64,000 nucleotides of DNA, taken from positions 496,001 to 560,000 of the forward strand of contig NW_026570309.1 in NCBI RefSeq assembly GCF_019649055.1, read 5' to 3'. This DNA is from Paramacrobiotus metropolitanus (lineage: Eukaryota > Tardigrada > Eutardigrada > Parachela > Macrobiotidae). Under the pieces are notes generated by a model. It was given only the letters and a program-made list of their open reading frames with translations, was not told the DNA's origin and ran no database searches. The position numbers and the translations under genes are program-made. Positions 5,850 to 46,400 of this stretch are shown here, piece by piece (the stretch's first letter is position 1; the number at the start of each line of letters is the position of its first letter).

Positions 5850-6776
5850 ATGTTCTTAAGACTTTATGCAGTATTGTTGTGTTGTGGTTTAACTAGACTC
5901 CTGCTAAGCACGATATCAGTCGAATGCAAAGTATCGCTGACCACAAAGGGCAAATATTGCACTGGCCATTGTGGGACATACACTTATCCTTATCACTGGT
6001 GTCCTGTGAAATACTGGTGCCGGGAAAAGGTCAGTAAGTTTAGGTATGAAACCCGTCTCTGCCATGGTTGGGAATACTGCTCCCCGAATCCGCAGCTGAC
6101 CAGCCACGGAAAACGCTGCAAAGCTGACAGTGTGTGCGACTATCATGGGTATAGTTACATGTGGTGTTATACGGAGGATGACAGTTGGGACTATTGTGCC
6201 CCACCAAGCGTGGAGTGGTGTGATCCGGTCCACGCTACCAGCGCCTCCAAGGACGGACGTTACTGCGAGGACCAGTGCGAGTCACACGGCTCGCCGTACC
6301 ACTGGTGTTATGTTGCACGTGGATGGATGGATAATTTCTGGCTATTAATTCGGCCATGGGATTATTGCGAACCACCAGAAATTATGTTGGATGACGCAGC
6401 CATTCAGTTCAAGATACAGGAGGATTTTCCCGATAATTGCCGCTGTCAAGGACGAAAAGTCATAAACGCCGGTATGAAACAGACGTTTCGCGTTATCTGC
6501 ACAGAACGACAGGTTGCCTTTACTGATGCGCCGCGATGCCGGGATGATAGGCTTATCTTGCCGAACAGCACCAGTGACTGGCTGGGAACAGATTGCACGT
6601 ATAGCGGTTATCCACATGACTGCCCGCAGTACAGTAATTACGAAGAGGACTACTACACGGAATTAATGCACACTATTGGCCAGAGAGTGTGCGAGCAGAA
6701 ACACCGGATCCAGTTCTGCTTGAACGAGGTGTACAATACAAAGCTTTGCTCAGATATCGTTTTCCAAAGGGAATAA
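5850..6776 (+). CDS. Secreted cysteine-rich protein with three WDYC repeats, copy B
   Basis: Paralogue of the gene at 3795, 308 residues in one exon. It has the same order: signal peptide, three GxxC...YxWC...WDYC repeats, and a C-terminal cysteine domain (CRCQGRKVINAG, NSTSDWLGTDCTYSG). The second repeat and the C-terminal domain are the most conserved. The third repeat contains a short insertion around VARGWMDNFW. The start is fixed by homology and signal peptide. Gene and upstream block were duplicated together. Function unknown; extracellular from the signal peptide and cysteine content. Confidence 0.8.
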   Translation: MFLRLYAVLLCCGLTRLLLSTISVECKVSLTTKGKYCTGHCGTYTYPYHWCPVKYWCREKVSKFRYETRLCHGWEYCSPNPQLTSHGKRCKADSVCDYHGYSYMWCYTEDDSWDYCAPPSVEWCDPVHATSASKDGRYCEDQCESHGSPYHWCYVARGWMDNFWLLIRPWDYCEPPEIMLDDAAIQFKIQEDFPDNCRCQGRKVINAGMKQTFRVICTERQVAFTDAPRCRDDRLILPNSTSDWLGTDCTYSGYPHDCPQYSNYEEDYYTELMHTIGQRVCEQKHRIQFCLNEVYNTKLCSDIVFQRE

Positions 6777-8617: not shown

Positions 8618-11600
8618 TTACACCCAGATATCCGAAGAACAGTCGCCACCCGGATAGCGCACTTCATGACCGCGAATGGCCCCATCCGGTTCGCTGGACA
8701 GATCGACGTAAAACTCCGGATCGACCGTCATTCCTTGGGGACTGCAGTTTAACATAATGATTCCGCTGCCTTTCCTTAAAATAAAGTTGTAAGCATTACA
8801 TAGTATTCTTGTATTTAACATTGAAGGCACTGCAGATGTGCTTTAAATTCACATACTTCACCAGTTCCGGATAAAACTGCTTATCCCATGGCGTCAGCAG
8901 AGAACATGTAACGTATAACCGTTTGCCATCTCGGGATAACTGCAGCATATTAGGACCCGACCTGCAAATAAATTTCAAAGAAAAACAAATCATAAGAAAT
9001 TTGTTATAAGCGGAAACATGCACTCCACTATACAAGCTAAGGCACGCCCGTAATTTTGCAGTATTTTAGGAAACACTGGTTTGCTTATATTTAATTTGAC
9101 GCGAGGGGGCGACCGTTCACTTACCATATAGGATGACCTTTCACGACCAGCCTCTCTGGCTGTGTATCCAGTTCCTGGTCTTTTGTGACCTTAACGCCAG
9201 TGTCCTTGCAGATCAGACCTCCCAGGAAAACCTGAAATATTATAAAAGGTAATTCAGTGTATCCATGCATGTCGGCGTCAGTTCGACAGAATTTTTTTGT
9301 CTTACCGAAGAAACGAATTTGGGATGTTTTGTATCGGAGATATCATATTGTCTAACATCTCCGTGTAACCAATTAGCAAAGTATAGAAAGCGGTCATCCA
9401 GGGAAATGAGAATGTCGGAGATAAGGCCGGGCATAAAGGGCAATGCCCAGTTATCGACGAATTTTGGTGGGATTTTGATAACCGGTTCACATGTCCATTC
9501 ACCGTCCTGTATGGTACATAAGACAAAAGAGTGCATTGATAAAATTACCAAAAAAGCAACTGATGCACTACTCGAATAAACAAAAGCGTACAAAGATACG
9601 TAAAATAATCATATTATATGAATTATTCATGAATTAGAGCTGTTAACTACTTCTCAAAACCAGCAATATTTACAGGTTGTATTCGACGCTATGAGCACAC
9701 ACTGGATGAGTAAAACACCTTGCAACTTGAACGCATTTATTGTATACATAAGCGATGCTCGCCGTGTACATTACTGCCAATACACCGAAACAGGCAACTA
9801 AGCTTATTTTTTATGTGAAATCCATAATCCATATCGTTGGAGCAATAAAGCGACGATTTTGGAACTTATCGAAATATAAATTTTTGACTAGAACTGCAAA
9901 ACTTGACCCTCTAGACATATTTTTCTGATAATGAAAATTCTGTTTTCTTTCAATTCATACCGGAAGTGCTTTCTATAAAATACCAATTGGAAGCAGTGTT
10001 ATTGTGCTTTAACGGACTTATGGAAAATGATTCAACACACCTGACGGAAGAAACGGTAGACTACAGATTCCAGTGCTACGCCCACAAAGCCCTCGCTGGC
10101 GTCGGGATTGTGCAGGAAACGGACTTCCAGAGGGATCGCAGTGGGACCGTTCGCGTCACCCAGGCGCATGGATTTAATAATTGTGTGCTTATTCCAGTCC
10201 CAAAAGTGCAAAGAATGGCCCAATATCTGGTTAGTCGTGGCGTCTTCCATGTTGAAACCCTTCATGAAACTTTGCGGATACCCAAATTCGCTGGAGACCT
10301 GTGTTAACATTTTAAAACTGAAAAGAATGATTTTTTATTTACGGGATCTAGTGATTCACAGCAAAGTGTATATATATTCAGAGAAATATAGTTTTATTCC
10401 AAGTAGAGTGACTGCACATTATTAGTACAACTACAATCAAATCTCTTCAGTTTTTATGCATTTTCATCTACGTATCTCAGCAAAAGTAAGACTACGGACG
10501 CCACGCAAACCATAAAAATACTTACTCAAAAATGTCCAAAATATTCATACATGCAGGTACATTATACAACGGACGTTAATTTTTCCTTCAGTTTTAATTC
10601 TGGCGCAGAACAAAGAAATTATAACCTAAGGAATTGTAACGGCTTGTTGTGCAGTTTGTTTTAAAAGAAATTATTTTTTTCGATGGCTAGAAAGAGGAGT
10701 ATATTTAGTTTTTGCGAACACTTTTTTAAGTGCATAGTACATTTTATGATAAAATGTATTATGCACTTAAAAAAGTGTTCGCAATAACTAAATGTACTCC
10801 TCTTTCTAGCCATTTTTATCTGACAATATCCTTCCACATAATAAGTACATAAATGAATTTTCAACCACGCTGATTATATATTAACTAACCATAATATTAT
10901 GGCGTGGCTGATACCAGAAGTCATATCCCATAATATCCTGGCTGTTCTTATTCCACAACCCTTTCGGCTCGAAGGTCTCGCCGTCCAGCAGCAGAAAGGC
11001 ACCTTTGCCCTTGCCCTGCTGATCGCCCATGTAGGAGATCATAATCTCTCCCGACGGCAGACAATGCACGGTGTGCGGATACTGAATGTCAAAGCGCTGG
11101 GCAATCTGGGCACCATCGATGACTTTGTGTAAGCGCGGCGCGTTGGCGGTAGCCACGTCGACAATGTGGATGTTGCCGCTCTGCAGACCGGGAATGATGA
11201 GGAAGCGGCGCGTAATGGACGGATGCCGGCAACTGACGCAACTGTTCCATCCGAAATGGTGCAGCTCATCGCGGGGATCCGAGGAATACAGGCGATGGAT
11301 CACCTGATAGTATGCCAGCAAACATGCACTCCCGTAATATCGTGAATAATGAATACTTATCTCTATCTGTACAAGTATATGTATTACGGAGGCAAATTGT
11401 ATGATCCGCAAAAAAATGATTAAAGTGCAAATCATAATCATTAACTGGCATAGGGTTTCGAAAATATTTGTCGAAAAAGATTTAATTTTCAGTTTTCTAA
11501 AAAACATATATATTTTTTCCAAACATAATTTTATGGTAATTCTAATTGTCATTTCTTAATTGTCTATTTGCAAGGTCAGCAAAAATCCTGTGATGCATTT

Positions 11601-14258: not shown

Positions 14259-16091
14259 ATGCGAGCGTCGAAAACCATGTTATGCAGGATTAAACTGTGC
14301 AGCAAAATGCTAAATTTATTAGTTATTTTGGCTCTTCACGTGGATGCCGTAATACTCGTAACTGCATTCGCAGATACTTAAAATGTTTCTCAAAATGATA
14401 CACCATATGACGACATGTTGCTAAAACTGATTGTTTACTGCAGATTGTTGTTGCTGCAAAATGTATTCCCATGCTTGGTCCATGGTGCTCCAGTATCAGT
14501 AGGTGCGTTACTAAAATAGAACGACTGATATCCCGTCAGATTACCCTGAAGGCTGAAACCTACATACATGTAGAGTCATGCGAAAATAACTAGGATACAA
14601 ATCGCCGACATTTTCTGTGTTCTGTAAATAATCATAAGTTTTTAACTAATTATTTTTACTATACAGAGCAGCAATGACTTTTCTGAATCGGGTGTATTAT
14701 AGACAATTTCAACAACGTCATGACTTTATTAACAGCTTGGGAAGATGGAAAAGATCCGGAATTTGAATCATCCGCTGCTGCATCAGTGATGCCGTCCTGG
14801 AAAGATATTTTGTGGCTACCGGATGACGCCTCTTCGAACAGGTTTCAGGCACCAGGTTCGGCCACTGGTCGAATGTTTAGCAATAACTACTGGAACCAAA
14901 GCGGCAACTGCGTTCCATACGCGATCGCACCCGATTTTGGTATAGACTGTAATCGGCGGGCAAAATTAGTTCTGGTTGGAAGTTAAATTGGTTTCGGCAG
15001 AGTCAGCTGCTGCTGATTCACTTTGTTTGCTGCATAAAATTAAGGTTTCCCGTGAATAAGGGAATATATGATAGCTGCACAGAATGCAGACGTGTAAAAG
15101 TATTGTAGATCCAAACACTTGTACCGTAAGTTGACTTCCTGATTTTAAGTTGACACTTCCTGACAGGACCGGCGTAAATAATCAGGAGATCAATTTTCTA
15201 CTCTGTTGACCTTTATAGACGCTGAAGCACAACATCTTATAAGAACGGCGTTGTTGGCCATAGAAAATGCAACGCATGGCTGCGTGAGGTTTATAAAGCG
15301 AGAGCATGAAAAAGAATTTATTTCGATTCAGCATAAGCCAGGGTAAGTAAGTATTCATATTGTAATGGACCAGTGAGGCTATATGACGCTAACTGCTATT
15401 TGAACATCTATAGTGCATCGATTAGCAGTCATCATCGATTACGCCAGCTTCTTACAGATTTTCTTTCGTTTACGTTAGCTTTCGTCATTTTTGAAACTGT
15501 TGATGGTTTAGATGCGCGGCTGACGTCGGGAGGACACCCAGGAGAATCACAAAAGTCATACTGGGAGGAAATTGTTTGTCTCCAAGAACAATAATACATG
15601 AAATTTTCCATGCATTGGGATTCTACCACGAACATAGCCGTCCGGATCGAGATACATATGTCACTGTCAACGCTGCCCCGAGCAATATCGAACGAAACGT
15701 TGATCTGCGGAATTTCAATATTCTGCCTGATATGCCGGTATTTAATTTGCCATACGATTACGATTCTATAATGCATTACGCACCCAGTGATTTTGCGGCT
15801 AATCCTAATGATCCTAATGGAGCGGTCATCATGCCCAAAGTCAACGGATCACTGAAAATTGGCAAGCGAGACCAGTTGAGCGTTCTCGATATTGCTAGAC
15901 TAAAAGTAGCTTACGGATGCTTGGATGCGAATCTCGGACCCATTCGCAAAACTTTTCCTAACAACTGCAAAATGACAGTAAAGGTAGCGGAACGAGTAGA
16001 GGAACCAGTTGTCAGCGCTGTTCGTCATCAGCATTCGCCAACGTCACGAAAACCTAAAGGGTCAAGACTCAGAGAATTAAACGAAGGTTAG
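14259..16091 (+). CDS. Astacin-family (M12A) zinc metalloprotease, five exons
   Basis: Secreted zinc endopeptidase. Exons: 14259-14348 (signal peptide, MLNLLVILALHVDA), 14444-14498, 14703-14939, 15219-15342, 15512-16091. The last three are firm; the first two fit in phase but are tentative. Exon 3 encodes the propeptide end and the start of the catalytic domain (YWNQSGNCVPYAI). Exon 4 gives the helix and strand AEAQHLIRTALLAIENATHG and RFIKREHEKEFISIQ. Exon 5 holds CAADVGR, the zinc motif HEIFHALGFYHEHSRPDRD with its three histidines and catalytic glutamate, and the Met-turn SIMHY. The domain closes at AYGC, followed by a C-terminal tail of about 60 residues with no EGF or CUB domain. Total about 361 aa. 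All catalytic residues are present, so activity is likely; the substrate is unknown. Confidence 0.85.
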
Positions 16092-16258
16092 CCATATCGA
16101 TTTTAAAAGCTAAAGATAAATTCAAATTTGTGTCCTATTGAGGACTGAAAAGCCAGGATTAGCTTCCTGGCAGAGAAAGTATGACTGTCGACACGGAAAA
16201 ATTATAATACTGCGAAATTGCGAATACTGTATATATAAAAGTTATGTACAGTTCCCAG

Positions 16259-17307
16259 GTATGTGGAGGACAATAACGCTGAATCTCCCTTTCTCCCGGA
16301 GTTTTCGGATAAATTAATGACCAATGAGCAATGTGCCGCCCAATTCACTAGCAACTGTTCGCCCGTGCAACGTAAAAAGGCCGCTTGCGCGAGATTCCGA
16401 GGTCTGGAGATACATTGCTATAATACAGCAACCCTCGAAGAAATCGCACAAATAACGGCTGCGGTATCCAGGCCACCAATTCGAGCAGTGCGAATCCGTT
16501 TAAACGATGGCCCACTCATTACGTACAGGAACTTTGTCCGCGTAAGCACCCAGGTGGTCCAGTTCACACTGTCATTCTGTCGCGGTGCACGAGCCTCCGG
16601 TAAGCTGGCGAAGCTATGTTTTGTCCGTCTGCTAGACTTTGAGTTGAGTTGGTGCGACAATCTGGAAATTCACAAAGACGATTTCAAAGAATCGTTGCAG
16701 CTGCGGATAATCTTACTGGCGCAATCAACAATCCGCACACTGGAAGAGGGGACCTTTACGAACCTGAGGAGTTTGGAGGTGTTGTCGCTGGAATATGGAC
16801 TGGAGAGTCTGCTGCATTTGCGACCGCGTTATCGTGACCACGTCGCTCGTATTCATTGCGAATGTGAATTTGCTTGGCTTAGAACATGGTTAAACCGAAA
16901 TGCCAAATTATTATGGAAGAAAGATGCCGGCGCCGTTTATAAGTTACAAAAGTCATACAGCAACCCTGCATATAAAAGAAGAGATCTCTATATTCCTGTC
17001 GATTGCTCGAATCTTTTTCGATCAAACGCGTCTCTCGTAAGCTTCGCTCAGATGGATTTTTCTATTAGCGATAGTAATTGTGTTGTCTCTTAAACTATTC
17101 CTCGGATCTTGGAGCATATCTTTCGCCTGGGTAGCCTGTATCGCATTGTGTATCAGACTTTTCGTTGCTGTCAGAAGCCTTATGATTGTTTCTCTTTTTA
17201 AATATGTAAGGATCATAAGTGCTGAAATTCAGCGCGGAAATGCCGCTTCTGTTCTGGGAACTGTTGGATGTTTGAAAGAGCTAGAAGAGCTGTTTTATTT
17301 GTTCTAG
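16259..17307 (+). CDS. Leucine-rich-repeat protein, probably membrane-anchored; 5' end and frame join unresolved
   Basis: An exon opens after TTCCCAG at 16258 and runs in one frame to 17093. It has an N-terminal cysteine region (CAAQF, NCSP, CARF, HCYN), then weak leucine-rich repeats (LCFVRLLDFELSWCDNLEIH, LRIILLAQSTIRTLEEGTF, LRSLEVLSLEYGLESL). A C-terminal LRR cap follows (HCECEFAWLRTWL ... IPVDCSN). No signal peptide is seen, so a 5' exon is missing. From 17041 a second frame is open to 17307 and encodes a strong membrane helix (WIFLLAIVIVLSLKLF and onwards). No splice pair with correct phase joins cap and helix, so there is either a +1 frameshift, a sequence error, or an unusual splice. 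Family clear, function unknown. Confidence 0.55.
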
Positions 17308-18190: not shown

Positions 18191-21100
18191 TCAAGAGCTG
18201 ATTGCGGCGTCTGTGTGACGAGATTCCGAGGCACCAGGCAAAACCAAAAAAGACGTTGTTGTTTCCGTTGATGGGATACCGTCGATATGGGCACTTTGTC
18301 GCCTTCTGGAGTTCTTTCGACGTTGTTGAGCTTTTATACAACAGCCATACACTACGATCCCAACAACTCCCGGTGCTCCTAATGCTAAAGTGAGCTGTGC
18401 CCATAAAGGCCACGGTGAGGCTGGAGGAAAACGAGTGATGCTTGGTTGGGAATTATCTATAGTTAAAGTCGATATTGCACGTATAGATGAGCGCAGATGC
18501 CGGTCAATGGATTAAGTGTACATGTTATTAAATTTAAGTACGTGCATTTCGGCACCTAAATGCATTTAAAAGTTTTGGAATTTTCTTATAGCCATAACTT
18601 TCCAACCGGATGTTGCGTGTCTAAAGGATTTTCACATCAATGTACTAGTATTCAAATAATTTGGCTACCCAATGCCAATAATATATTTTGTTGAAAATAT
18701 TATGAAGGGTGGGTGGTTTATGAAAACGTAGACAAGTACTCAAATTGAGCGAACGTTGAGAAACATCATACTTACTCTTCGATTCTTGGGGGTTGATGAT
18801 TGCCTCTAAATTATTCCTTTCAGACGTAGCTAAACTGTCCTGTCCACGTTCGCACCCGTCAATAATTTCTAAGCGACCAGACATGGCTGACATGTGCTGC
18901 TCGAAATCAGAGGTAGAAATAAAGAACTCCGGGTAGTAAGGCTCTGCAGCGCCAAGGTCTACTTTGATTTTCCATTCCACCTGCAAATTTATGTTTAACA
19001 ATAACATGACAATTGATATATTATATACAGTACTAATACACATAAATATGTCGGACAGTAAAAGCCAGTGATTCCAGAACGTGTCACTGTTTTACCGCAC
19101 TGCAGGTAAAAGTTCAACAAATTCAAACATAACTCGAAATGCCAAAATGTGGAGTTAAAAATTAAATTTCCTTGTAAAATTTCCTCTTATCAACCGTTGC
19201 TGTGCGTCTTTTGTTTTGTGCGTTGTAAGTGAGCATATAAATTTTGCATAAGCAGAACAACCTGGATGTGGCTATGAAATCTTTGAAGCCGGTGACAGTC
19301 AAAATCAGATCATTATGCTTTAAGGACTCTTAAAATATTTTCGTCGATGCTCGATACAAATGTTTTGATAAGACGAGATACTAGGTATTGACGCCGTAAC
19401 GGAACACGGTCTTGTTTCAAACTTTCTGCACAACAAGTAAAGAGACAAGCTGATTTCCAAAGAAAAAGCCACATTAATTTTTAAAACTCTGCGTAGCAAG
19501 CTAATGGTAAGGATTACAGTCGTAGTACCTCTGAACCAGGCTGTACGCCTCTGCATTTGTCGGTTTTCTGCCAATCCTGGTTACCGCAAGATGAAAACAA
19601 CGTGAAGCGCAGCTGTGGATGAGATGAGCCACTGAGTTTGATGAATTTAGCTGGTTTCTGTCCAAATTAAGGACAGTTATTTTTTGTGAGCTGCAGCAGG
19701 TTCATAACATTTGCCTACCAAGTATTCATTTTTTATCAGTGCCAAGACATCGGCTAATTTGTTATCCAGGGAAGTAACAACACACCGAGCAACCCGATGG
19801 CATAACCGCTCGTACTGCATAACTCGTTCCGGCGAAACCACGAACACCAGATGAATATCCTTATCTTCCGCCAATTTTGAAATTGCGGCTATGGACGGGT
19901 AATTCTGCGTAAAAGTTAATCATTTCAAGCTTTTTACAATTTAGGTCTGCAGCTTAGCAGCATTTTTAACAACGTTTTACCTGTACAATATCCTTGTCAT
20001 AGGTTAATTCACCAGTTGAAGAGGTGGATTTCAATTGGCAGGATCCATGTCCGTCTTCCGGATCGGAGGCAGTACTTTGAACCTGCAGTGAGGACTTTTC
20101 ACTATGTTTTACCTTTTTCAGATGCTCAAAGACCTTCAGCATTCCGCAGTACTCACGTCAACGCCATCGACGAAGGTTAAGGGAATATCGGTAACCATTA
20201 CAAGCAGTTGTATAGAGTCTTCACGCCATCCGATCTCGCTCGATGCCTTAAAAGAGTCGTTTGCGTTTCATCATATTATTTAATCATTTTATTCTGTTCA
20301 TCTCTCGTTTAACACTTACATCGCATATCATGGTTTGCAAGAACGCGTTCATCCATTCCTTGGAAGAGCAGCAGTTTTGAGCAGTCTTTGCCTTTTTCAG
20401 TCTAACCTTTGTTACGCAAATTAACTTTAGGAACATTAATCACTTCGCTAACAAATAAAAGGAAAGCTGACTCCAGTATGTATTCAACTTGCCTCAAATT
20501 CACGATTAGGAGTACCCAATGGCCAGTAACGGCCATAGCCGTACTGACCTCTACAAATACAAGCAAGAGACCTTCAAATGATGCGGCATCTAAACACTAT
20601 ACAAGACACTGGAAGTTTGCGAACCACACATCATTCAAAACGAGAGCGCCTCCGCTGACAAAATGTAATTGCTGAAAAGTTGTTTAATATTTACGTGGTT
20701 GATTCATCTCCAAAGTATCCAACGCCCACGTGCAGATCAATGTCCATAGTTGCCAATTCTGTCACTGTTTTGTAATAAAAGAATTATTACTTGAAATTTA
20801 CGCTGCTTACAAGTGTAAACGAACATAATGCATATTTGCACTTGCCCGCAACAGTTTCTTACACAGTGTTTTGGTCAAAGCGACCCTTACAGCCTCAGCA
20901 TCTGTTGAATTAAAAGATAATCCGAACTGAACGAATAAATCCACGGGATATTTTCTTTTCCGGGTGTTGACGCTTAAGGTCGCCGACGTGTCTGCAACAG
21001 CACGCATGGCTTTGTATGATTGTTACGCTGTCACGGTATCAAATGCGGCAAAGCGCATTTGATACCGTGTCACAACTCATGTCACACAAACTGTTTATCT

Positions 21101-23064
21101 GTAGCACAAACTGATAACCAGCATCAGCGACTACCGTTCGATATCGTGCTCCACACATGCATCAGTGAATCACTAAGAATTAACGTTTTCCGCTTATGCT
21201 TGTCCACGCGATCAATAGGCACGCTCAGCTTTACCACATGTAATAATTATTACATCACAAGGGTGTGCGATGTAAACTGTAAAGCGACGCCACGCCGACA
21301 TACAAACTGTTTATGCCATAAGCACCCCATCCGCACCCGTATGACAACTGAACGAAGTACGAGTCGATTATTCTTACGTATGATTATGATTATTCTTACG
21401 CGGACGCATTCTGAGAATCACCCTTTGCGGCTTGATGGCCACCATATCGCTCAGTGCCAAATCCTGCAAGCATGATCTGCAATTAAATTTTTGCTTAAAA
21501 ATTTTTTAAGAACGGTGATTCTAACCTCATAAGCCAGCACTTCATTGTCCGGAGCAATCACGTCATGTGTCGTACATTTGCGGTATGCTTGCGTCATACT
21601 ATGACAGCGACCAGCAGTGGATAGCGAATTCTACGAAGAATTAAATTATCATTATTAAGTTCTGTAATTACTTTTACTTCTTAATTGTCCTCTTAGGAAG
21701 TCCTTTTTATGCATTCGAACGGTATTATCTCTGCAATATCCCGATAGTACTTTATGACATTGAAAAGTCGTATCTTGAAGTCAAGCCCAAATTCCAAATT
21801 TAAACATTTCGTTGAAATACCTACGGTGTCACTCAATACCGAGTACCCCTCTGTCGGCATGCTATAAGCACGCTTCAATGAGGTAATTCCGCAAATAAAA
21901 ACAAGATAAGCAGATAAAGGTCAAGTGATGCCGACGACATGTTCTGTAGACTTTTGAAATATTTGTTGTAGTGAAAGAAAAGCCTGGGTTACGATATCGA
22001 AATCCCAAGCTCGTTAACCCCAATAGATAGCGAATATAGCACTGGCACTGCCTGAGAAAATTAAATAATTTTTACTACTTAACAAAACAATATTTTCGTC
22101 ACATATTCTGAAGTTTCAACAACAATAAAGTACGTAACTATAGAAAGGACTCTCGGTAAAATGTTCTTTAAGCAAAATCACTAAGCGAAATAACGCGACT
22201 CAATTCTTTACTCTGATTGAGAATGGCGTTTAAGTAATCGTAGTGAAATTATTATGGGTGTATAAGTATTCTGTATGTGCAGATAAGAATTAATGAATAC
22301 GGCGGACTAGACATAATATTAGCAGCTATCTGCGTTCTAGCGGTATTCGCTTTATTATATCGGCACGACGGCAACTGAATTTTATTTATGGCCCAGAGAC
22401 ATGAGAAAATAATAACGCAGCCGCTCCTAACAAAGAAGTACTGATGGCTCTTAACTTACCTAAATTCTACAGAACGACTAGGAAAATCGCGAAAACATTA
22501 CGATCTCAGTTGGAAGTGTAATGCATGCTTTGTTACAGTGTTATGGATATTGAAATGAAAAACATTTAACTTTTTGGCAGTACAATATACTATAGCGGTA
22601 TAGCCACTAGATAAAACGTGCTACTTTTTCCCGGTCACCAGGCTCTGTGGTGCACTTCATCTAGAGACTGAGCTACAGTAGCTGTTGTTACGGTTATTAG
22701 TATGGTGGCGTAATAAGTAGGGGACTGTAATTAATCATACTTCTATAAATAAATCACTTATCTGTATGTACATAGTATATCAGGTGATAAAATTTAAACA
22801 CCTATGTGACAGATATCTTCCATTATTATATCAATCAAATTTTCTTGCTTTTAATAACCTTCATAAATAGCCAATCTCGTATCAGTATTATGAAATACAA
22901 CAAACAAGGAATGAAGGAGCATTTTGTCTTTGTGCAACAGTGCATGCATTATTAGTACATACGAATTTCGCTAACCTTTTGAGCGCACCATGCGCATGAC
23001 TGGTGGGCCTGAATACATCCTTTACAAGAAGACTGTGACGTGCAGATATCAATGGTGCTAATAG
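18191..23064 (-). CDS. Integrin beta-like receptor 1, EGF-less; first exon not found
   Basis: Minus-strand exons in order: 23064-22976, 21630-21526, 21463-21400, 20991-20842, 20764-20695, 20550-20493, 20406-20320, 20246-20157, 20082-19981, 19904-19719, 19657-19529, 18980-18776, 18456-18191. Phases agree throughout; the 20493 donor is GC (GCAAGT). About 532 residues plus a missing signal exon. Domains: PSI (CKGCIQAHQSCAWC), hybrid start (LSDMVAIKPQRVILRMRP), beta-I-like (KYPVDLFVQFGLSFNS, IDLHVGVGYFGD, EIGWREDSIQLLVMVTDIP, NYPSIAAISKLAEDKDIHLV), hybrid end (FSSC ... TDKC). A membrane helix (LTLALGAPGVVGIVVYG) and a basic tail follow. No EGF repeats, no beta-tail, no NPxY. MIDAS DxSxS is GLSFN. 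Paralogue of the gene at 26257. Possibly a pseudoreceptor; ligand and alpha partner unknown. Confidence 0.8.
21032..21069. repeat. Short perfect inverted repeat in an integrin-like intron
   Basis: CACGGTATCAAATGCG at 21032-21047 recurs as its exact reverse complement at 21054-21069 with a 6-base loop. It lies in the intron between 20991 and 21400 of integrin-like gene 1. It could be a hairpin in the transcript or a palindromic binding site. Confidence 0.8.
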
Positions 23065-26000
23065 CTGCAAAACAGAACTGACCAGCTACGTACATATATA
23101 CAGTGGAGATTAATGTTATGCGAGTATGATTTCATGATGTCAGATTTAAAATCCGTGCATTCGATTTAATTAGGTAGAATAATATGTTGCTGAAGCCTGA
23201 AAAAGCATTTTCTCAAAAATATTGCGACCGCTAGGGTGGCGACACTTTGTGAGAAGGAAACCGTTTCTTCACAAACTATTTGCTTTTCAAATTAGAAAAG
23301 TTCTCTGATTCCGAATTTACAATCGAGAGGCGTGTGGGCCGAGCTATAGATAAAAGCCCAGAGTATAAAAATGCACGTAAATTTACTTAGAGCATACCCT
23401 GAGAAGATGTGTGAGGAACAGCAATGGCAACGAAGAGGAATTGAAGCGAAAGTAGTGGCAATAACATTTGTAGTTTTTGACACTGCATCGCTGCAGATAT
23501 GGCCATTTCAAACAAATTCCGGATTATTAAACACGTATTGAGTTAAAATAAACAACAATATTAATTATTACAAAACCGAAAAATCCCCCTGTGCTGACAA
23601 AATCCACTGTAAAATAAGCATCAGAAACCCCGACTTTTTAACGCTCTATAAGTTATGCAAAGCTCTAGGCAGGCAAAGGTTGGACGTCGCAAACAAAACT
23701 TGAGAATTATTGATGGAAGCATCAAGTGTGATGAGACTGATTTCCGTATGTCGACCTTGCGTACGGGAAATTGATGTCTTTATATGGTCCTGAATAGTCC
23801 AGCAGCCGCGGAGACAACCTTGCGCGCCGACTAGAGCGGTGCGACTCCTCCTCTTTTCAGGCGACATTTTCAGAAATGTGCAAGATGGAGGATTGTTTGC
23901 GAACTGCAGATGAGTAGGCTGTGCGATAAGATGGAAGGCAAAATTGATATCATAAGTAAAAGCCGTGGGCAGTAAGCTAATATCCACAGCTTCTTCAACG
24001 CGTGCGCTCTAATGTACTCGTATTTTGTAGTAACTGCTAACTGTATGTACGGTATTGTAATTCTATGATTCTGGCTGTAGTTATCAGTTATCACTGGTAT
24101 AGCGCTCGCTGTTGTACGAGTATTACAACAGCCTGTTTTGTACCGCTTTTGTAGCGCAGCTGCGTTTTGGCAACGCATTAATTTAAATTAGAGATAAAGC
24201 AAGTTAACACGCAGTACTTCCAGTTTCTCAGATCGTCTACCTCTGCTGTACAGGCAATGCGTAGAACTCGTACCTTTAAGCAACAGGTAAAATCGATTAT
24301 AACTGCGATTACTTGTGGAACAGCGCGAAGCACCGGCATGGCGGCATCAGAGTCAGTTAGCGTAAAATGGCTTCAGTTTACTATAATTATAAGTATTTTT
24401 GTGTTCGAAGCTTACCATTATTCTCCATCTGTAAACTAAACCTTTTTACATAACATTTACAGTTGCTGGACTTTAATGCGGTGGGATGAACAGGCAGACA
24501 TCGTTGAAGACAAACATTCTTGAAGAGCTCTGAACGTATGGATACACACAGTTATCATCGTAGCCATGGATTCTAATATGACGAAAAAAAAAACACCGTC
24601 AAAAATGTTTCCATGGACAAACAGTTATTTATTTTGTGCAGTTTACTGCTAAAACTAAAAAAAGCAACACCTGGTAAATTTGTATTATGTATATACGAGT
24701 AATTATGGTGTTATCGCAGTTTTCTTGGTTTCGAGCAGTTTCTGTTACTCACAACTCACAAATAAAGTCAACCGTTTCACCCGTTTCTGTCGTAGATTTA
24801 ATTGTTGTAAGCTTTAGTTAAACATTTCGATAACGCGGCAGGCTCGCATTTAATGAAGCGTTCTGGTAGTGATAGATAATTTGTCATTGTGATTTCAGAA
24901 AGTAAGTAAGCAAAGGAGCAACGTTTCAACGTGCAGTGTGGGAGGGCATAGTTCTGTTTTAAAGTGGTAAGGCATCGTTCGTGGGCCAACTGCCAAGCCG
25001 ACTACCAGGTCGTCTGCAGACTGCAATTATTTGCAACATCTGTAGCAGTTTATCATGTGTATTAAAATTATTACTTATGTTATTTTAAAACTGCGATAAC
25101 GTATATCAACTGTATCTGTGCAGTCTTTACTGAGCAACAGAGCCTCTTGTGACATGAAATACATAAGCATGAAAACTGCGAATAAAATTCCTGTTCATTG
25201 TGTGGCTATCTGTTTCCGGAACCTTATTTTTATGAATTTTATGACTTTCTGGCTGGTGAATGTTATCTACTGATACGAACACAATTGTTAGAAGGTATCA
25301 TGGTGTCATAAAGTGGAGATTTTCAATGCCGGGTAATGCGGCTATACGATAGAATGACGACTGTGTTGGAAGACAGTGCATTCCATTACACAGTTCGGCA
25401 GTGCCCGAGATTTTAGTCTTCTCCGGCAAGCAGGAAGAATGCCTGCAAGATTAATCAATGACCAGACTAGCGAAATGCGTGATTCACAGGATTACATGTT
25501 TCAAAACAAATTCCGCACACAAGCAAATCTAAAGCGAACAAAGCGAACACTGATCAGTGATAATCATTAAGCATTGACTGGTTCGACAAATACTTACTGT
25601 GATGGTCAACGAATTTCTTGAGTTTTTCAGGTCCACACGGTAGCGCAACTACATACTGTAGCGGCTCGATCAAGTGGCACGGCATACCTAGAGTAGTTTC
25701 TGTACGGGAAATCAGCACTTGCAAAGTGAGCGCTCAGCACTGCGCAGTGCTTGCGAGCGCATGAGCATGCATACGCTGCATGTGCGCTGATTTCCCGTAC
25801 ACCAACCCTGTGGTGTGACTTGATCGAGCCGCTACAGTACTGCATGCAGCGTACGACTGTGTCCCCCGTTGTGGAAATTCCGCGCAGCCACCGGACTAAT
25901 TTTGTTGCAGTATCATGGTAAAAAATTGCTTTTCAACAGCAGCCAACTGTACTGAAGTATGTATAAATCACAAAATAACTCGAAAACCAGAGCATATGCT

Positions 26001-26256
26001 GTAGCCATGCAGAAAACATTCTTTTGACAACTTTTAACTTTGATACCGCTAATACCAAACAATTTTTTTCGCCGAGTTATTCATTCTACCAAAACATGAT
26101 GAAACACACTGACTGAAAATTCTTAGATTGCAATCAATGTACGTGCATGGGATAATTCAAATCGAAATTTTTTTTGCCTGTCCAGCTCCGATTATTTGTT
26201 GCTTCATAAAGTTCGCACCAATTAGGACATGTTAATGTTCAAGCTGGGCTTCGTGC
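23065..26256. other. Intergenic, probably holding exon 1 of integrin-like gene 1
   Basis: By analogy with gene 2, a signal-peptide exon ending in phase 1 should lie upstream (higher coordinate) of 23064. I found no convincing one. The minus frame 23483-23292 has a possible donor (CTAA|GTAAAT, phase 1) but a weak signal. The rest is AT-rich with chance frames and the inverted repeat at 25654-25839. Confidence 0.4.
25654..25839. mobile_element. Small fold-back (MITE-like) element, 186 bp
   Basis: The ends are inverted copies of TACTGTAGCGGCTCGATCAAG (last base paired imperfectly beyond the first 20). Inside, a second pair, GTACGGGAAATCAGC and its complement, continues the symmetry around a CACTGCGCAGTG palindrome. 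No coding capacity. Flanking bases show no clear target duplication, so the class of parent transposon is unknown. Confidence 0.65.
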
Positions 26257-29200
26257 TCATGCTCTGTTTGGATGCTGATCGGTGCCACCATTACTTTGTT
26301 TTCGAAGATGAGGATTTGTTGGTTCCTTGGGGAGATGGCCATACCCATCAACAGCTCTAGGTTCTGGTTGACTACCGGGTATTGATTCCATGCCGACATC
26401 GTTGGTGCCCTCTCCACCTGTGGGCACTGGGATGTAACCTCTTTTCTGCCAGAGTTTAAACCCTAGCACTATGACCGCAACCAACATCCCGACTAGACCG
26501 ACTGCCGAAAGTACCAACCAAACAGAATGTGTGGTCGAGCAATCGGCCGATTGCAGAGTGCGTCCAGCGGTCGGCGGACATGATTTAAGCCCGGTGATAG
26601 TTTCTATTTGGATGATTAGTGTGTTATTCGAGCCGGCTGGTCGGATATGCAAATCCCGGTAGAATGCCGCCGAAGTATTTGGGACGCCAACAAGTTCGAT
26701 ATTAACCTGCCATTCTACCTAAAATGTCAAGTCACATTGAAATACTACCCTCAATACCAACGTAGACTCCATAATTGTGATTACTACCTCTGAGCCCATC
26801 TGTATATTTTTGCATTCAGTAGTTTTCTGCGGGGTTCCAGTTGTTAAGCTTGCCGAACAGGAGGACCAGTATGTTCGCTTTATGTTTGGTATGTCGGGAC
26901 CGTCCATCAGTTGAATAGACTGCGTGCTTTTCTGTTAAAATAGACAGTATGCCCACAACTTATGATATTCTACATACTATTCTATATGACCCTAACTATA
27001 GACTCTGTACACCGGCACTGGCACAATAGTGTTCAAGTGTTTACAAAGCGTTGTTTTTCGGTTTGTATAGAAATAATGTGTTATCGACCGAAGCAAAGCT
27101 TAGCGATGGTCTTCCACTCTGTATGTTCAGCGCGAATGGAAAATGCGGTGTCTCTGCGTCAGCCACCGCCACGAAATGCACATATGGACAGTGGTGTTCC
27201 ACTTGTCCTTTTACCAAAAAAATTCTACCACTGGAAGGCGAACACTAACTAACTGAAAGGGATCGCCTACAGTAAAACGGGGTGAACAAGGGGTGCCAGG
27301 ATGCCATTCCATTCACTCTGTCTTGTAATATACAGACTACAGAGTAGCCCTGCTACTCTTCGGTCATGCAGTTCCCGCAATAAGCGAGTGCGCTTTCCTT
27401 GTTACAATGCACTAGACTGATGACCTTTTTCTAAGTATAACTCTTACCAGATACTGGCTTTTAATCATCATGGCGGCAGTACTCCAGTCATTGTCCAGTT
27501 TGATAACGCTGCATGCTGAATGTGTCAACAAATAGCAAAAGTGTAAATACTCGGAAAAGCGATCAGCAGGCACCATGAAGACAAGGTTGACTTTATGATC
27601 TTCGGTCGTTTGGGCAACTTGGCGCGCAGATATGCTATCCTGTTGGAGAAAGTTACCTATTTCTGTTTCAGTACAACAGCAACACCGCGAAAATGTTGCA
27701 TTATTCAATGAAGTTGTTTGTGTTACAAAAAGTTGGTTATTTAAAATTTAATTGTGAGTATGAGTTAGAATGTTCTGGAATTCCAGTTAAGAAAATGAAA
27801 AAAATGCACGGTGGTAGTAAAAGAAATCCCAATTACAGCGCCAGTACAGATATGCAGACCTGCCCAATATCTGCAAAATGTGTAGGTACTTCCCGCGCGC
27901 TGGTGCTTTGGAAATAGCATGCTTCGTTGTTGTCCTCATCAAAAGCAGCAATCCCAAATCCCTGAAATCAACATTAGCATTAGCGTGACAATTGGATGGC
28001 AATAGTCAAACCCAGAAACATTCTATCAACATAGATAAAGGTCATACTGTGTTCTGCCTGAAGAACACAGTACCAGTGAAGGTTGAACGCCGCTATGTGC
28101 ATGCTCTATCGAAGCACATGGCATATTGGCAACTAACAAGGCATTATGCTTTCTGTCAGCGTTGCCGTACTTTCGTGGTGCAACAATCGGTTTAGGTGCA
28201 TTTATATATTGCATAACAAAAAAGAAGATGCGTTATCTTCATCAGTAAAATATAGCGCAAAAAAGCACTGCTCTGTTTCCACTTTTTCTCATACATTGAA
28301 TTTTAGTATGCAAAATTGCAGATACACAAAGTTATGGAAATACCTAATGACTACTTGTACGTACTTTTCACCACACTCAGTCGTACTGTACTCCCAAACG
28401 GGGCAGCAAGTGTTTATGGAGCGGTTCCGCAAATTCATAATTTCGGTAAGCTTTCATTTTCCGTTAAGTTGTACCTTACACCCTATTGCATTAATTTTTT
28501 AGTTTTAGGGCTTTTAGCCAGAATTTTATCATTTTGCAAATTGATCGGAAAATTGGCGTTTCATTTCGGCGCTGCGCAAACATTCGTCCTACTGTATATT
28601 GAAGTAAATTTTACCGCATGTACGTTTTTGCCATCGGAGAAATTCACCGGTACATCCGTAGCTACAATTACAAGATGTATGGATTTTGTCCGCCATCCAA
28701 TCTTGTCCTACACAAAATTCCATAAATTTTACTCTTACGTGGAAGTTATGGCACAGAAGGGGTAGTTCACGAGCTTACATCGCAGACAATTGCCTGCATG
28801 AATGCATTAACCATTTGGTCCTGAGTACAGCAGTCAGGGGGCAGTTTCCCACCTCGCAGTTGCATCTAGAGGGTGTTACAAAAATTAGTTTTTGCGTGAA
28901 TCATCGCACTCTCCGCCATATCAACCTCCGGATTTGGTTTGGTTCTGCTGAGAGGAAAGTAGCGGGCATAGGAACCGGACTTTCTGGAAAATGTAAGTAT
29001 AAAGCAGGTGCTGGAAATGAAGTCTGAAGCAATAATCAATTCGAGGTGTCACTGCTTTTTCCATCAGTGGTGAACTGGTAATACACCAAACAGAATACCT
29101 CGTTGCAATGAGCAAGGAGATTACTTACTCGGGAGAAGCGTCCACAAAAGTTCCTAAGCCCCATCGTAGATCGAGGTCAAGATTGCCCAATTCCTTGTCT

Positions 29201-30582
29201 ATTTTACATTGAGCAATTTGTTATTTTTGTACCTGTCTCTTTACCGTTACCACTTCATATAGTATTTCTGTGCACACCTAGAGCTTTTATCAAAGAGGAG
29301 CTAGTGGCTTGGGCAGCTGTCATGTCAGAAGAAAATGCCATTTGTAGGTGAATGTCCACTGGATATGGCATCTTGCGAATTTTTAGCTTTAAAGTTTCAG
29401 ACGTTTCTACGAGAGAATGATAGTATAAACGCTCGAGCTGGCTACTCTATGCCGTATTAAAAGTCGTAAACGCTTGTGGTGATTCGGAGGTCAATCAGCT
29501 CATACGGTGCGATTTCGAATGATGTAGTTTACGTAGTGGCAACGTACGTTCGCGTATTGTAAGAGAAATTCTCTGCGGCTGGATTTCGATCACATCACTT
29601 AACGCTTTATTCTGCAATAAAATCCGCAAAATCAAATGCGATCGTTGGTTCATTTTACGACACAAGGAATCATACCTCTATTGTGTTAGGCTGATTTTTG
29701 GGAGCTACGATTTTATCGCTTGTACATTCCTTGTGCACAGAGGAACGGACATCACAACGCGCCCCAGAGAATAACTTCTAATAATTTAGAAACAACGATT
29801 TGAATATCAAATTAAAAATAAATGCATATTTTCGCGCAGTAACGACAAACGCACATTATGCAGTAGGGACGGCGGTGACCATAGACAAACAACATTTTCT
29901 AATGACACTGGTGACCTCTGCTACGCTTCGCTCTCAAATTAGTTACGATAAATTACGCAGAAACAGAACCGAGCAAAACTCATACAAAACCCAGAAGGAT
30001 TTAAAATTACCAAAACTGCACTTATGGTAAGAGCTTCAACAACGATGAAATTCGCAAAAAATGGCATTCGTCATTGTAAGTGGTAAAGAAAAAAGAAAGA
30101 ATATCACAGAACCAAAAGGTTTTTGTCATTGTACCTCATCGTCGCACCAGGCACAACTAGGATTTGCTTGCAGGCATGCTTGACACGAATTCTGCTCCTT
30201 ACATATGCTGGACGTCGCACCTGCAAGTATGTATTTATACGCCAGCTCATCAAAATTAATTTAGGTCGATCCAATGTGCAACAGAAGGTACAGTACATAC
30301 AAAACTCGAGATACGTCGGTGATAATGCTAACTGTGAACTGAGGGATAATACGGCTATGGATACCACTGTTACATCGTTCTACAATAAAAGATGCCAGTA
30401 CTACTTGAATATCCGAAGATTGTTTTACGCGACCATGAGCTAATAGAAAAATAATTACAGCAAAAAGGTGATCATGTATTTTCTTAACCTTTCTGTAAGA
30501 AGTACGGCAAGATGGCGGCAATGGCCGTCGCCAGTTGTGACGACAGACCGAAGATAGGTCGTCTACCGGAACGTAGCTTCAT
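26257..30582 (-). CDS. Integrin beta-like receptor 2, EGF-less, complete in 13 exons
   Basis: Minus-strand exons in order: 30582-30489, 30220-30135, 29777-29676, 29611-29548, 29406-29278, 29198-29129, 28983-28926, 28865-28779, 28707-28624, 27961-27860, 27639-27448, 26931-26788, 26718-26257. All phases agree; 557 aa. Order: signal peptide (1-31); PSI (CQACLQANPSCAWCDDE, GARCD); hybrid (IEIQPQRISLTI); beta-I-like from PYPVDIHLQM (about 130) to KSQYL (356); hybrid end (TYWSSC ... TECKNIQMGSEVEW); a stalk with IIQIETITGLKSC; membrane helix 470-491; and a 65-residue tail ending without NPxY or the HDRRE motif. The four I-EGF modules and beta-tail domain of true integrin beta chains (about 750-800 aa) are missing. 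MIDAS reads AFSSD, ADMIDAS reads TAA, and the specificity loop is deleted. Donors GTCTGC (27860) and GTTGAT (28926) are weak but required by the alignment. Confidence 0.85.
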
Positions 30583-31935: not shown

Positions 31936-32778
31936 ATGGCGTTCATCGCATCCATCGGTGCCGTTCTCAGTGTGATAGTGGTCGCGGTGGCGGCGCAGTA
32001 TGCTGTGAGCAATAATCAGTATGGGATACAGTATGCCAGTGGATATAATAACGGTGGCGGTGGATTATATGGAGGCGGGGGATTCAGTTCCCTGGGATCG
32101 GGATATGGGTCCGGCGGATTAGTTAGCGGCGGATATGGCGGTTCCGGTTACAGCAGCGGCGGTTACGGTGGCAACAGTGGTGGTTATGGCGGTAACAGCG
32201 GAGGATACGGGGGTAACAGTGGTGGATACGGAGGTAGCAGCGGCGGATATGGCGGTAGCAGTGGCGGCTATGGCGGTAACAGCGGGGGTTATGGAGGTAA
32301 CAACGGCTATGGTGGGTCGAGCCTAAATACCGGATACGGTGGATCCGGATACAGCAGCGGAGGATCGGGATACAGCAGCGGTGGATACGGTGGCGGTCTG
32401 AGCAGCGGTTACGGAAGCGGCATGTCGGGTGGGTACGGAGGTGGTCTGTCCAGTGGCTACGGAAGCGGATTATCTAGCGGCTATGGAGGTGGTCTCTCCA
32501 GTGGTTATGGAAGCGGCCTGTCTGGTGGATACGGAGGTGGTTTGTCGAGCGGTTATGGCAGTGGTCTGTCATCGGGTGGATATGGAGGCGGTCTCTCCTC
32601 CGGTGGATACGGTGGCGGTTACAACAGTGGCTCCAGCTATGGAGGCGGACTCTCCGGTGGTTACGGTGGATCGAGCTACAACTCCGGCGGCTACGGAGGT
32701 GGACTGTCTAGCGGATATGGTAACAGCGGAGGATACGGACAGACTAGCCTGTCTGGATCTTACTATGGCAAGAAATAA
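31936..32778 (+). CDS. Secreted glycine/tyrosine/serine-rich structural protein
   Basis: Single exon, 280 residues. A signal peptide (MAFIASIGAVLSVIVVAVAAQ) precedes a low-complexity protein made of GGYGGNSGGYGG and GGGLSSGYGSGLS units, ending GSYYGKK. Composition is dominated by Gly, Ser and Tyr with no cysteine. Such GGY-repeat secreted proteins are known from cuticle, eggshell, silk and adhesive secretions; Tyr-rich repeats allow dityrosine cross-linking. The actual role here is inferred from composition only. The Kozak context (AACCATGG) and the TATA box upstream support the start. A poly(A) signal (ATTAAATAAA) lies near 32949. Confidence 0.85.
   Translation: MAFIASIGAVLSVIVVAVAAQYAVSNNQYGIQYASGYNNGGGGLYGGGGFSSLGSGYGSGGLVSGGYGGSGYSSGGYGGNSGGYGGNSGGYGGNSGGYGGSSGGYGGSSGGYGGNSGGYGGNNGYGGSSLNTGYGGSGYSSGGSGYSSGGYGGGLSSGYGSGMSGGYGGGLSSGYGSGLSSGYGGGLSSGYGSGLSGGYGGGLSSGYGSGLSSGGYGGGLSSGGYGGGYNSGSSYGGGLSGGYGGSSYNSGGYGGGLSSGYGNSGGYGQTSLSGSYYGKK
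32116..32760 (+). repeat. Coding minisatellite (GGY units)
   Basis: Two blocks of internal tandem repeats encode the glycine-rich protein. From about 32140 to 32310 the units are 21 nt (GGYGGNS/GGYGGSS). From about 32380 to 32620 they are longer (30-45 nt), encoding GGGLSSGYGSGLSSG variants. Synonymous differences between units show that they are not all recent. Confidence 0.8.
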
Positions 32779-43343: not shown

Positions 43344-44176
43344 TAATGCTAGTCAAATCGGAACAATGCGTTATCTGCGACTCTGCGTACGAGTTGTCCA
43401 GTTCTAACGTGGAATTTCTAGAATTTGGGAATGTCTGAACTATTCTGATGTACAGCAATACGTTTTCTTGACCTGCATTCCTTTTCATATTCTAGTGCTC
43501 AGCCTGGACACTGCATTCTTGTCCTGGGAAACGAGCAATTAAGTGTTCTTGTTCAGTGATTTTTTTCTGAGCGCCGATACATAGAATGGAGAATGAGGAG
43601 AGTCATCCACTGATACTATCATAATTATTACAAAACGAATGCAAGCCTGCTGCCCTACGATTGTGTGATTGCTGTTGGAATACCGACAGTCTATATAGTT
43701 CAGCTTTGCGATACATGTACAGCATCTCTTCGAATGGGAATCCGACAGAGAATCGGCAACAGAACAGGCAGGATTGAGGCTAACCTTTAGTGTCCTTTAC
43801 TTTTCATCTTTTCCCCGTTAGAGGATAGACAGACGCAAAAGCTCAGAACAGACAGAATCATCCTGACCTTTCAGTAACCTTTCAGTTACACGTTGGATCC
43901 TGTACTATAATATAATATATAGACAGACTACGTCTGCCATATGTTATATTAGGCTTGCCCGTTTCAACCGTGCAGCGCCTGCGTAAAATATCGAAGTATG
44001 TACTAGGTTAGTGTTAAGATTTAAGTTTTAACCATACTTTATGGAATGCGCTACGTCGTCCGTTCTAAGTTTGTAACTCTGATTTCGTTGAGTCTTCCGC
44101 AATCAAGTCTTCACTCCGCCGATGAACAAAGCGAGTGTGCGTCTCGGTGACCCAGCGGTGGTGCGTTTCCATATAT
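43344..44176. other. Intergenic
   Basis: No gene or element recognised. Confidence 0.4.
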
Positions 44177-44738
44177 GTACAATGTACGACAAAAAGAGGT
44201 TGCACCGATCAGTCGGTCCGCGGTTCAAAATAACCTCGCAACGACACGCCACCACTAAAACTTGGACGCTTACTCACTACTTTCAGATGCTCGCGCTACG
44301 TGAATATCAAAGTGCAGCTATACTAGTTGCATATCAAAAGGTGTAGAAAAAAATTTAAAACTTTTTGATACTAAACCTGTGGCTGTTTGTGGTGAACAGC
44401 ACAAATTCTAGCCATTTTGCTTTCCCATAGACTTAAGCATTGACTGCAAGCCAAACGGTTATGCGCACAGATCCTATGCTGTGCCTACGAGAAAACAAAA
44501 TGGCTAGAATTTGTGCTGTTCGCCATAAACAGCCACAGGTTTAGTATCAAAAAGTTTTAAATTTTTTTCTACACCTTTTGATATGCAACTAGTATAGCTG
44601 CACTTTGATATTCACGGAGGGCGAGCGTCTGAAAGTAGTGAGTAAGCGTCCAAGTTTTAGTGGTGGCGTGTCGTTGCGAGGTTATTTTGAACCGCGGACC
44701 GACTGATCAGTTCAACCTCTTTTTGTCGTACATTGTAC
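44177..44738. mobile_element. Large fold-back element, arms of about 243 bp
   Basis: Left arm 44177-44419 and right arm 44496-44738 are inverted copies with a small number of mismatches; a 76-bp centre separates them. The outer ends read GTACAATGTACGAC and its complement. Frames in the arms (44122-44346 plus, 44660-44896 plus) are mirror artefacts of each other. The structure fits a non-autonomous fold-back transposon; no target duplication was identified with confidence. Confidence 0.75.
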
Positions 44739-45825: not shown

Positions 45826-46400
45826 CACAGTGTATATTCATTCACATATACCTAATTCCGTGAATAGGTGAAAAGTCAGTACTTTACAGTTAAAGTACTG
45901 CACAGTGTGCATTCATCCACATATACCTAATTCCGCGAATAGGTGAAAGTCACTGAAAAGTCAGTACTTTACAGTTAAAGTACTGCACAGTGTGCATTCA
46001 TCCACATATACCTAATTCCGTGAATAGGTGAAAAGTCAGTACTTTACAGTTAAAGTACTGCACAGTGTGCATTCATTCACATATACCTAATTCCGTGAAT
46101 AGGTGAAAAATGAGGATACTTTACAGTTAAAGTACTGCACAGTGTGCATTCATCCACATATACCTAATTCCGCGAATAGGTGAAAAGTCAGTGCTTTAAG
46201 GAAAGTATTGCCAGTACTTTATACTTCCCATATGACGTGAATCGTTGAAAGGTCAGTACTTTATAAAAAGTACTGTCAGTAATGTACTCTTCCCACACGC
46301 CCTGAATCCGTGAATCGGTGAAAGGTCAGTATTTTATGGAAAGTACCGCCAGTACTTTATTCTAGTGAAAACACATAGTCTGCAAGTACATTGGGTAAAG
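45826..46400. repeat. Tandem repeat, unit about 75-85 bp
   Basis: Units carry ACTTTACAGTTAAAGTACTG (itself a palindrome around AGTTAA...), GCACAGTGTGCATTCATCC and CATATACCTAATTCCG, ending GAATAGGTGAAAAGTCAGT. About five well-matched copies run from 45826 to 46200. More diverged copies follow to about 46400, with some internal parts lost. Confidence 0.85.

Follow-up and report, generated by a model that had tools for sequence, protein, structure and literature searches.

Two tandem tardigrade genes predicted to encode membrane-anchored integrin beta heads without leg domains

Introduction

To our knowledge, integrin beta chains have much the same plan across animals. ITGBL1, a partial integrin beta derivative, consists of I-EGF-like repeats only, with no head and no membrane helix. 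Here, we describe its mirror image: a tandem pair of genes, gene 1 and gene 2, in the tardigrade Paramacrobiotus metropolitanus (Eutardigrada; Macrobiotidae). The pair lies in a 64,000-nucleotide stretch of DNA, hereafter the window (NCBI RefSeq assembly GCF_019649055.1, contig NW_026570309.1, positions 496,001 to 560,000 of the forward strand), and coordinates are counted from its first letter. We regard it as very nearly certain that both predicted proteins derive from an integrin beta chain and carry its headpiece on a short stalk above a single membrane helix.

The nearest published case that we found is that of zebrafish beta1tr-1 to -3. That report (PMC1538996) describes these proteins as divergent, recent tandem duplicates that have lost residues of the site adjacent to the metal ion–dependent adhesion site (ADMIDAS) and of the ligand-induced metal-binding site (LIMBS), with a beta B-C loop nine residues shorter and a changed DGKL helix; its authors suggest weaker, different or no pairing with alpha chains. 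The tardigrade genes are likewise tandem and divergent, with a shortened loop and a changed DGKL helix, and are likewise suspected of weak or no alpha pairing. The cut, however, is the opposite one: beta1tr keeps EGF modules 1 to 4 and the metal ion–dependent adhesion site (MIDAS) but loses the beta-tail domain, membrane helix and cytoplasmic tail, whereas our pair keeps the anchor and loses the legs and the MIDAS. Alternatively spliced forms ending inside the hybrid domain, in a sponge and in man, are also mentioned there (PMC1538996).

A study of oyster integrins (PMC7390872) excluded nine beta candidates because they had no membrane helix, and it reports alpha chains that lack the region from thigh to calf. 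These candidates also fall outside the classical architecture, but leg loss is there on the alpha side, and the nine betas, unlike our pair, lack the helix. The accessible part of a moth paper (PMC10379305) contains nothing on EGF or MIDAS. We recognised no EGF-less, membrane-anchored integrin beta in the open-access literature, which is weak evidence of novelty, as most subscription papers lay outside the search.

Results

The two genes lie head to tail on the minus strand, on the contig labelled C89 in our searches of the genome (169.8 Mb in 533 contigs, with labels such as C200, C52, C7 and C6). Gene 1 runs from 23506 to 18191 and encodes 562 amino acids when its 14 exons are joined; gene 2 runs from 30582 to 26257, and its 13 joined exons encode 557. 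A first-pass annotation of this DNA had given the same span for the pair (18191-30582) and the same length for gene 2; its count of 13 exons stands for gene 2 and falls one short for gene 1. Exons were placed by hand, using open frames, splice sites and homology. Among the 25 introns, 24 are GT-AG and one, intron 7 of gene 1, is GC-AG. All 12 introns of gene 2 are matched in phase by an intron of gene 1. The two genes have equally long exons 4, 5, 6, 7, 8 and 10 (64, 129, 70, 58, 87 and 102 nt, respectively), and in exons 2, 3, 9 and 11 the length difference amounts to 3 or 6 nt. The chosen frame of the joined exons has no stops, against 15-32 in the other frames, although this comparison is biased because exons were chosen for openness.

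Both proteins have the same order of parts: PSI, hybrid, beta-I, hybrid end, short stalk, one membrane helix and short tail. Exon 1 provides the start codon and a signal peptide, as read from the joined exons; in gene 1 (23398..23506), its hydrophobic stretch has a Kyte-Doolittle value of 2.17, above our hydropathy cut, and in gene 2 (30489..30582) the signal peptide is weak by hydropathy. The PSI domain begins in exon 2 (22976..23064 in gene 1; 30135..30220 in gene 2) and ends in exon 3 (21526..21630; 29676..29777), as placed by the joined exons and by Pfam, whose PSI_integrin family is above its cut-off in both genes (3e-8 and 1.8e-9, respectively). All seven PSI cysteines are present in both. 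The first strand of the hybrid domain falls in exon 4 (21400..21463, from joined exons and alignment; 29548..29611, from a phmmer search of PDB). The Pfam Integrin_beta family matches gene 1 at 1.2e-25 and gene 2 at 3.3e-22, and the phmmer search of PDB matches gene 2 to integrin beta-3 (6e-33) over residues 40-179 and 220-442, two segments that extend almost to where the hybrid domain ends.

Exon 10 is beta-I in both genes (19981..20082; 27860..27961; joined exons). Exon 11 holds the beta-I end and an extra cysteine pair that is shared with the integrin beta on contig C200; it was aligned in both genes and matches PF00362 in gene 1 (19719..19904), and in gene 2 (27448..27639) the PF00362 match of this exon alone is below the cut-off. 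Exon 12 brings the return strands of the hybrid domain (19529..19657, by alignment, with the C374-C386 pair kept; 26788..26931, by PDB phmmer). Gene 1 then has the hybrid end, last cysteine and first part of the stalk in exon 13 (18776..18980; alignment) and the remaining stalk, membrane helix, tail and stop in exon 14 (18191..18456; hydropathy), which has a relative on contig C36. In gene 2, a single exon, exon 13 (26257..26718; PDB phmmer and hydropathy), carries the hybrid end, stalk, membrane helix, tail and stop.

The leg is what these proteins lack. Neither gene has a match at E<=1 to the EGF, Integrin_B_tail or Integrin_b_cyt families of Pfam, noting that HMMER filters drop most matches above ~0.1. 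The scan can see such domains when they are present, because the spliced integrin beta from C200, our positive control, yields Integrin_beta, PSI_integrin, EGF_integrin, I-EGF_1, EGF_2, Integrin_B_tail and Integrin_b_cyt at E<=0.01. Three EGF-like cysteine patterns likewise give no match in the six frames of 12-34 kb of the window; the strictest of them matches two, three and three times at the integrin beta loci L001, L002 and L003, respectively. We considered whether EGF exons might be hidden between the hybrid and membrane parts. In gene 2 they are excluded: hybrid end and helix share one exon, and there is therefore no EGF exon between them. In gene 1 we reject them, given that the last intron, the only one in the stalk region, is 319 nt long and that no EGF-like pattern occurs in those six frames.

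From the last hybrid cysteine to the membrane helix there are ~14-18 residues in gene 2 and ~40 in gene 1, and the helix is the single hydrophobic segment after the head in each protein (by hydropathy only). With so short a stalk, leg extension of the ordinary kind should be impossible for both proteins, as had been proposed. Neither cytoplasmic tail has an NPxY or NPxF motif, whereas the C200 protein has two. The anatomy proposed in the first-pass annotation, namely the domain order without EGF modules, the short stalk, one helix and a short tail, is thus borne out by Pfam, the PDB search, hydropathy and the cysteine scan, and the profile search that it suggested matched the head domains and detected neither EGF nor beta-tail.

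We find that the metal site of the beta-I domain has largely been replaced. Residues are given in beta-3 numbering, which we take to be correct and which was checked where the PDB alignment of gene 2 covers it. Residue assignment here is free of gaps because the pair and C200 share an exon 5 of 129 nt (132 nt in C52 and C7) and all five genes share an exon 8 of 87 nt. The MIDAS motif DLSYS (119-123) falls in exon 5, which spans the hybrid/beta-I junction; it has become GLSFN in gene 1 (20863..20991) and AFSSD in gene 2 (29278..29406; PDB phmmer and alignment). Exon 8 (20320..20406 in gene 1; 28779..28865 in gene 2, by alignment) encodes a vicinal cysteine pair that includes the replacement of D217. 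The replacements in gene 1 and gene 2, respectively, are D119 to G/A, S123 to N/D, D127 to A/A, D217 to C/C and E220 to K/D. Residues 126-127 read D-A in gene 1 and A-A in gene 2, and N215, D217, P219 and E220 read N, C, S and K in gene 1 and D, C, Q and D in gene 2. At the ADMIDAS and the synergistic metal-binding site (SyMBS), D127 and D217 are thus gone from both genes. S121, D158 and D251 are retained in both, the last of them in exon 9 (20157..20246, by alignment; 28624..28707, by PDB phmmer). The same exon carries the 3-10 helix, where DGKL is DGVD in gene 1 and DGK is kept in gene 2. R261 of beta-3, the residue in contact with the alpha propeller pocket, corresponds to lysine in gene 2 and to valine in gene 1, which hence has no basic residue there.

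The specificity-determining loop is shortened by exactly 18 codons in both genes. It begins in exon 6 (20695..20764; 29129..29198, by PDB phmmer), which is 70 nt long against 97 in C200, C52 and C7, and continues in exon 7 (20493..20550, followed by the GC-AG intron; 28926..28983, from joined exons), which is 58 nt long against 85. Together, these exons have 128 nt in the pair and 182 nt in the other three genes, and both loop cysteines are lost. Loss of the loop cysteines is not diagnostic by itself, because integrin beta4 lacks them too; PMC2397394 reports this for beta4 and for a cnidarian IntB, both otherwise typical. Taken together, the losses in beta-I and tail (MIDAS, SyMBS, loop and NPxY), which the first-pass annotation had not mentioned, are likely to alter function more than the missing EGF modules do.

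The extracellular parts contain 16 cysteines in gene 1 and 17 in gene 2, of which 14 occupy the same alignment column, against <=5 in 10,000 shuffles. Their positions would allow three PSI bonds, a bond between PSI and the hybrid end, C232-C273, C374-C386 and the extra pair in common with C200. The new CC pair would sit in the metal loop, in place of R216-D217.

Three other integrin betas, all with EGF modules, occur in the same genome, on C200, C52 and C7. The Integrin_beta family has 20 matches genome-wide: six on each of these contigs and two in the window. Searched exon by exon, Integrin_B_tail (PF07965) gives four matches (C200, C52 twice and C7, the last with E 2.35), none of them above the cut-off, and none on C89; once spliced, the C200 gene passes that cut-off. 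The C200 gene (C200:54277-58191, L002) is a full-length integrin beta with one GC-AG intron. Modelled to its stop, with the signal exon left out, it encodes 780 residues, compared with ~560 for our pair, and has two NPIY motifs. In the C7 gene, a six-frame view (L003) reveals a membrane helix and NPAY; its headpiece (C7:1981340-1983793, L003:1841-4294) has a variant MIDAS, DASNT, and lacks the usual acidic pair of the ADMIDAS.

The pair resembles these three genes in exon order and intron phase. Entry phases are equal to those of the pair in 12 of 12 modelled exons of C200 and C7 and in 10 of 10 of C52, in a comparison made by exon order, length and phase and not by mapping columns. Wrong joining of exons from separate genes is unlikely, as order and phases are common to all three. 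In a tree of seven sequences and 423 columns, gene 1 and gene 2 group together (FastTree 1.000; IQ-TREE 100/100), and the pair groups with C200 (FastTree 0.967; IQ-TREE approximate likelihood ratio test 95, ultrafast bootstrap 97). Two cysteine characters coincide with this grouping. The pair and C200 lack the C406-C433 disulfide of the hybrid domain, which C52, C7, ITGB1 and ITGB7 all have; the extra pair near the beta-I end is found in the pair and C200 only and is absent from the other four, with the second cysteine of gene 2 offset by two columns. Tree and shared cysteines thus place the pair beside C200 among the betas of this genome, and the earlier proposal of descent from integrin beta agrees with homology, exon order, intron phases and tree alike.

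Set against integrin betas in general (human ITGB1-8 and those on C200, C52 and C7), the pair has the PSI domain, a split hybrid domain with inserted beta-I, one membrane helix and most headpiece cysteines; it is without I-EGF 1 to 4, beta-tail, MIDAS DxSxS, loop cysteines and an NPxY tail. The pair is, judged by its sequence, an integrin beta derivative in which several of the features that define integrin betas are missing. Gene 1 also has some likeness to the VWA domain of Sib proteins (PF24909), at 19.9 bits, below the 27-bit cut-off, and gene 2 is not listed. Sib proteins are presumably from Dictyostelium and without a PSI-hybrid head.

Beyond the window and the three betas, a six-frame genome search with both genes, in which the best candidates only were followed, found no further family members except fragments, on C321 (exon 2) and C36 (last exon). 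The C321 fragment (C321:39676-39774 and flanks; L004:1071-1525 and 6050-6419) duplicates exon 2 of gene 1 and some of its intron 2 with 92-94% identity. Its source corresponds to window positions 22379-23169, and the copy is interrupted by ~4.5 kb of other DNA. A tandem repeat array in the window (45816-46360) has units that also adjoin this copy (L004:475-840).

The fragment at C36:60849-61120 (L011:7850-8121) is a diverged relative of the last exon of gene 1, with helix and tail. It is open, has a similar splice acceptor and is found immediately beyond a gene judged lamin-like by eye. Over 88 codons it is 41% identical to gene 1, with proportions of nonsynonymous (pN) and synonymous (pS) differences of 0.35 and 0.56, which hints that the tail of gene 1 may also be under constraint. 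No head exons on C36 were among the matches listed in genome searches with gene 1 and gene 2; the exon may be either a relic or part of another gene with the same anchor.

Integrin alpha chains are present in the genome. Searches gave three matches with Ig_1 (C30 and C5), three with FG-GAP (C30 and C6) and seven with Ig_3 (C5, C16 and C30, plus one on C73 with E 6.3, below the cut-off, which was set aside). Alpha leg domains were thus matched on C30, C5 and C16, the last via one exon. A divergent fourth alpha, missed by the Ig_1 and Ig_3 searches, lies at C6 ~418600-426560 (L008 and L010). In its partial gene model, a propeller (matching alpha-6 at 1.4e-12 in one frame) is accompanied by stretches that look leg-like by eye, and GFFRR and a membrane helix are present too. 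The Ig_1, Ig_3 and FG-GAP searches of the genome yielded no alpha without legs, C6 having leg-like stretches, and none of these alphas is known to be short.

Several other features occur in the window. On the plus strand, 15504-17093 contains the frame of an astacin-type protease (Pfam 2.5e-32) and, after it, a second frame whose resemblance to leucine-rich repeats is weak and falls below the cut-off. An open frame at 31936-32778 encodes a glycine-rich repeat protein that looks secreted and has no Pfam match at E<=0.01. Near-perfect inverted repeats lie at 44174-44741 (92%, 570 bases) and 10683-10813 (95%, 131 bases).

Discussion

We favour the reading that the pair encodes membrane-anchored integrin-head receptors that bind their partners without metal and probably without a conventional alpha partner, and give it a probability of roughly 0.45. 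The ancestor of the pair would have lost the leg exons for four I-EGF modules and the beta-tail, so that the membrane helix comes directly after the hybrid domain and the head sits near the membrane. Its product would no longer bind ligands via a metal ion, nor relay force through talin. It would most likely function through the protein surfaces of its PSI-hybrid-beta-I head, which the new vicinal CC pair and the retained link between PSI and hybrid end would stabilise, and conventional alpha partners would probably be dispensed with.

The case for alpha independence draws on two observations. Beta1 without its loop does not pair with alpha6 or alphaV, as stated in PMC3206902, which cites Takagi 2002, and gene 1 lacks the basic residue that contacts the propeller. 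In alphaV-beta5, the basic residue of the loop motif that contacts the propeller pocket holds the dimer together and is critical in simulation, according to PMC10948361. We propose more tentatively a fully stand-alone receptor, one that dropped the legs, talin tail and metal site of an integrin beta along with much of its loop, kept the disulfide-braced head, gained a new tail and, in the former metal loop, a new CC pair, and may bind partners with neither alpha chain nor metal.

The main competing explanation is that these short betas trap alpha chains. They would pair with normal alphas through beta-I and propeller, and the resulting heterodimers, binding neither ligand nor talin, would act as a dominant-negative brake on full-length betas. 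Alpha genes exist in the genome, gene 2 keeps the DGK sequence, and loop-less beta1 is said still to pair with alpha4 and alpha5 (PMC3206902); the zebrafish authors suggested a dominant-negative role for the divergent beta1-3 (PMC1538996). Nevertheless, we consider such trapping rather unlikely: DGKL has become DGVD in gene 1, both proteins have lost 18 loop residues as well as the leg and beta-tail that would ordinarily flank the alpha legs, and neither tail has an NPxY motif. An alpha chain with full legs would presumably also need to stay bent over its short partner. A dedicated heterodimer with the divergent C6 alpha, as an integrin-like receptor peculiar to this lineage that binds in a new way without metal, seems improbable. 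The C6 gene has the propeller, leg-like stretches, helix and GFFRR that such a partner would bring, but its partial model is not visibly shortened and shared divergence is the sole tie between it and the pair. Least probable is that the pair are functionless relics, either decaying duplicates or wrong gene models. Branches are long, many conserved sites are lost and fragments of gene 1 occur elsewhere (the exon 2 copy on C321 and the tail exon on C36), whereas both spliced frames are open throughout (562 and 557 codons) and share their intron phases with other betas, 14 cysteines stay in register, and both genes have lost exactly the same 18 loop codons. Moreover, pN is below pS (0.42 and 0.75 over 403 codons, at 34.7% identity), although this is weak support for constraint because synonymous sites are saturated and the ratio of 0.56 is no lower than among other betas (0.45-0.67).

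Other observations weigh against a metal-free receptor that acts without an alpha chain. Gene 2 keeps the propeller-contact lysine and acidic residues at 123, 215 and 220, and gene 1, alone of the two, retains D126 and N215; weak alpha pairing or odd metal binding by the pair is therefore possible. The persistence of alpha4 and alpha5 pairing in loop-less beta1, and the typical character of beta4 and cnidarian IntB without loop cysteines, point the same way. The signal peptide of gene 2 falls below the hydropathy cut that gene 1 passes, and the tree comprises seven sequences with long branches, with C52 entered without its PSI exons.

The pair offers a natural anchored head without legs, metal site or talin tail, and so separates the role of the head from that of leg and metal. 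Whether a PSI-hybrid-beta-I head needs an alpha chain in order to fold, to arrive at the cell surface and to bind could also be tested on this natural example. If alpha trapping is the true explanation, the pair would act as an inbuilt brake on adhesion in animals from a group noted for its tolerance of desiccation. If instead these proteins stand alone, they would, as far as the open-access literature shows, be the first integrin beta–derived family to leave the integrin mechanism yet stay in the membrane.

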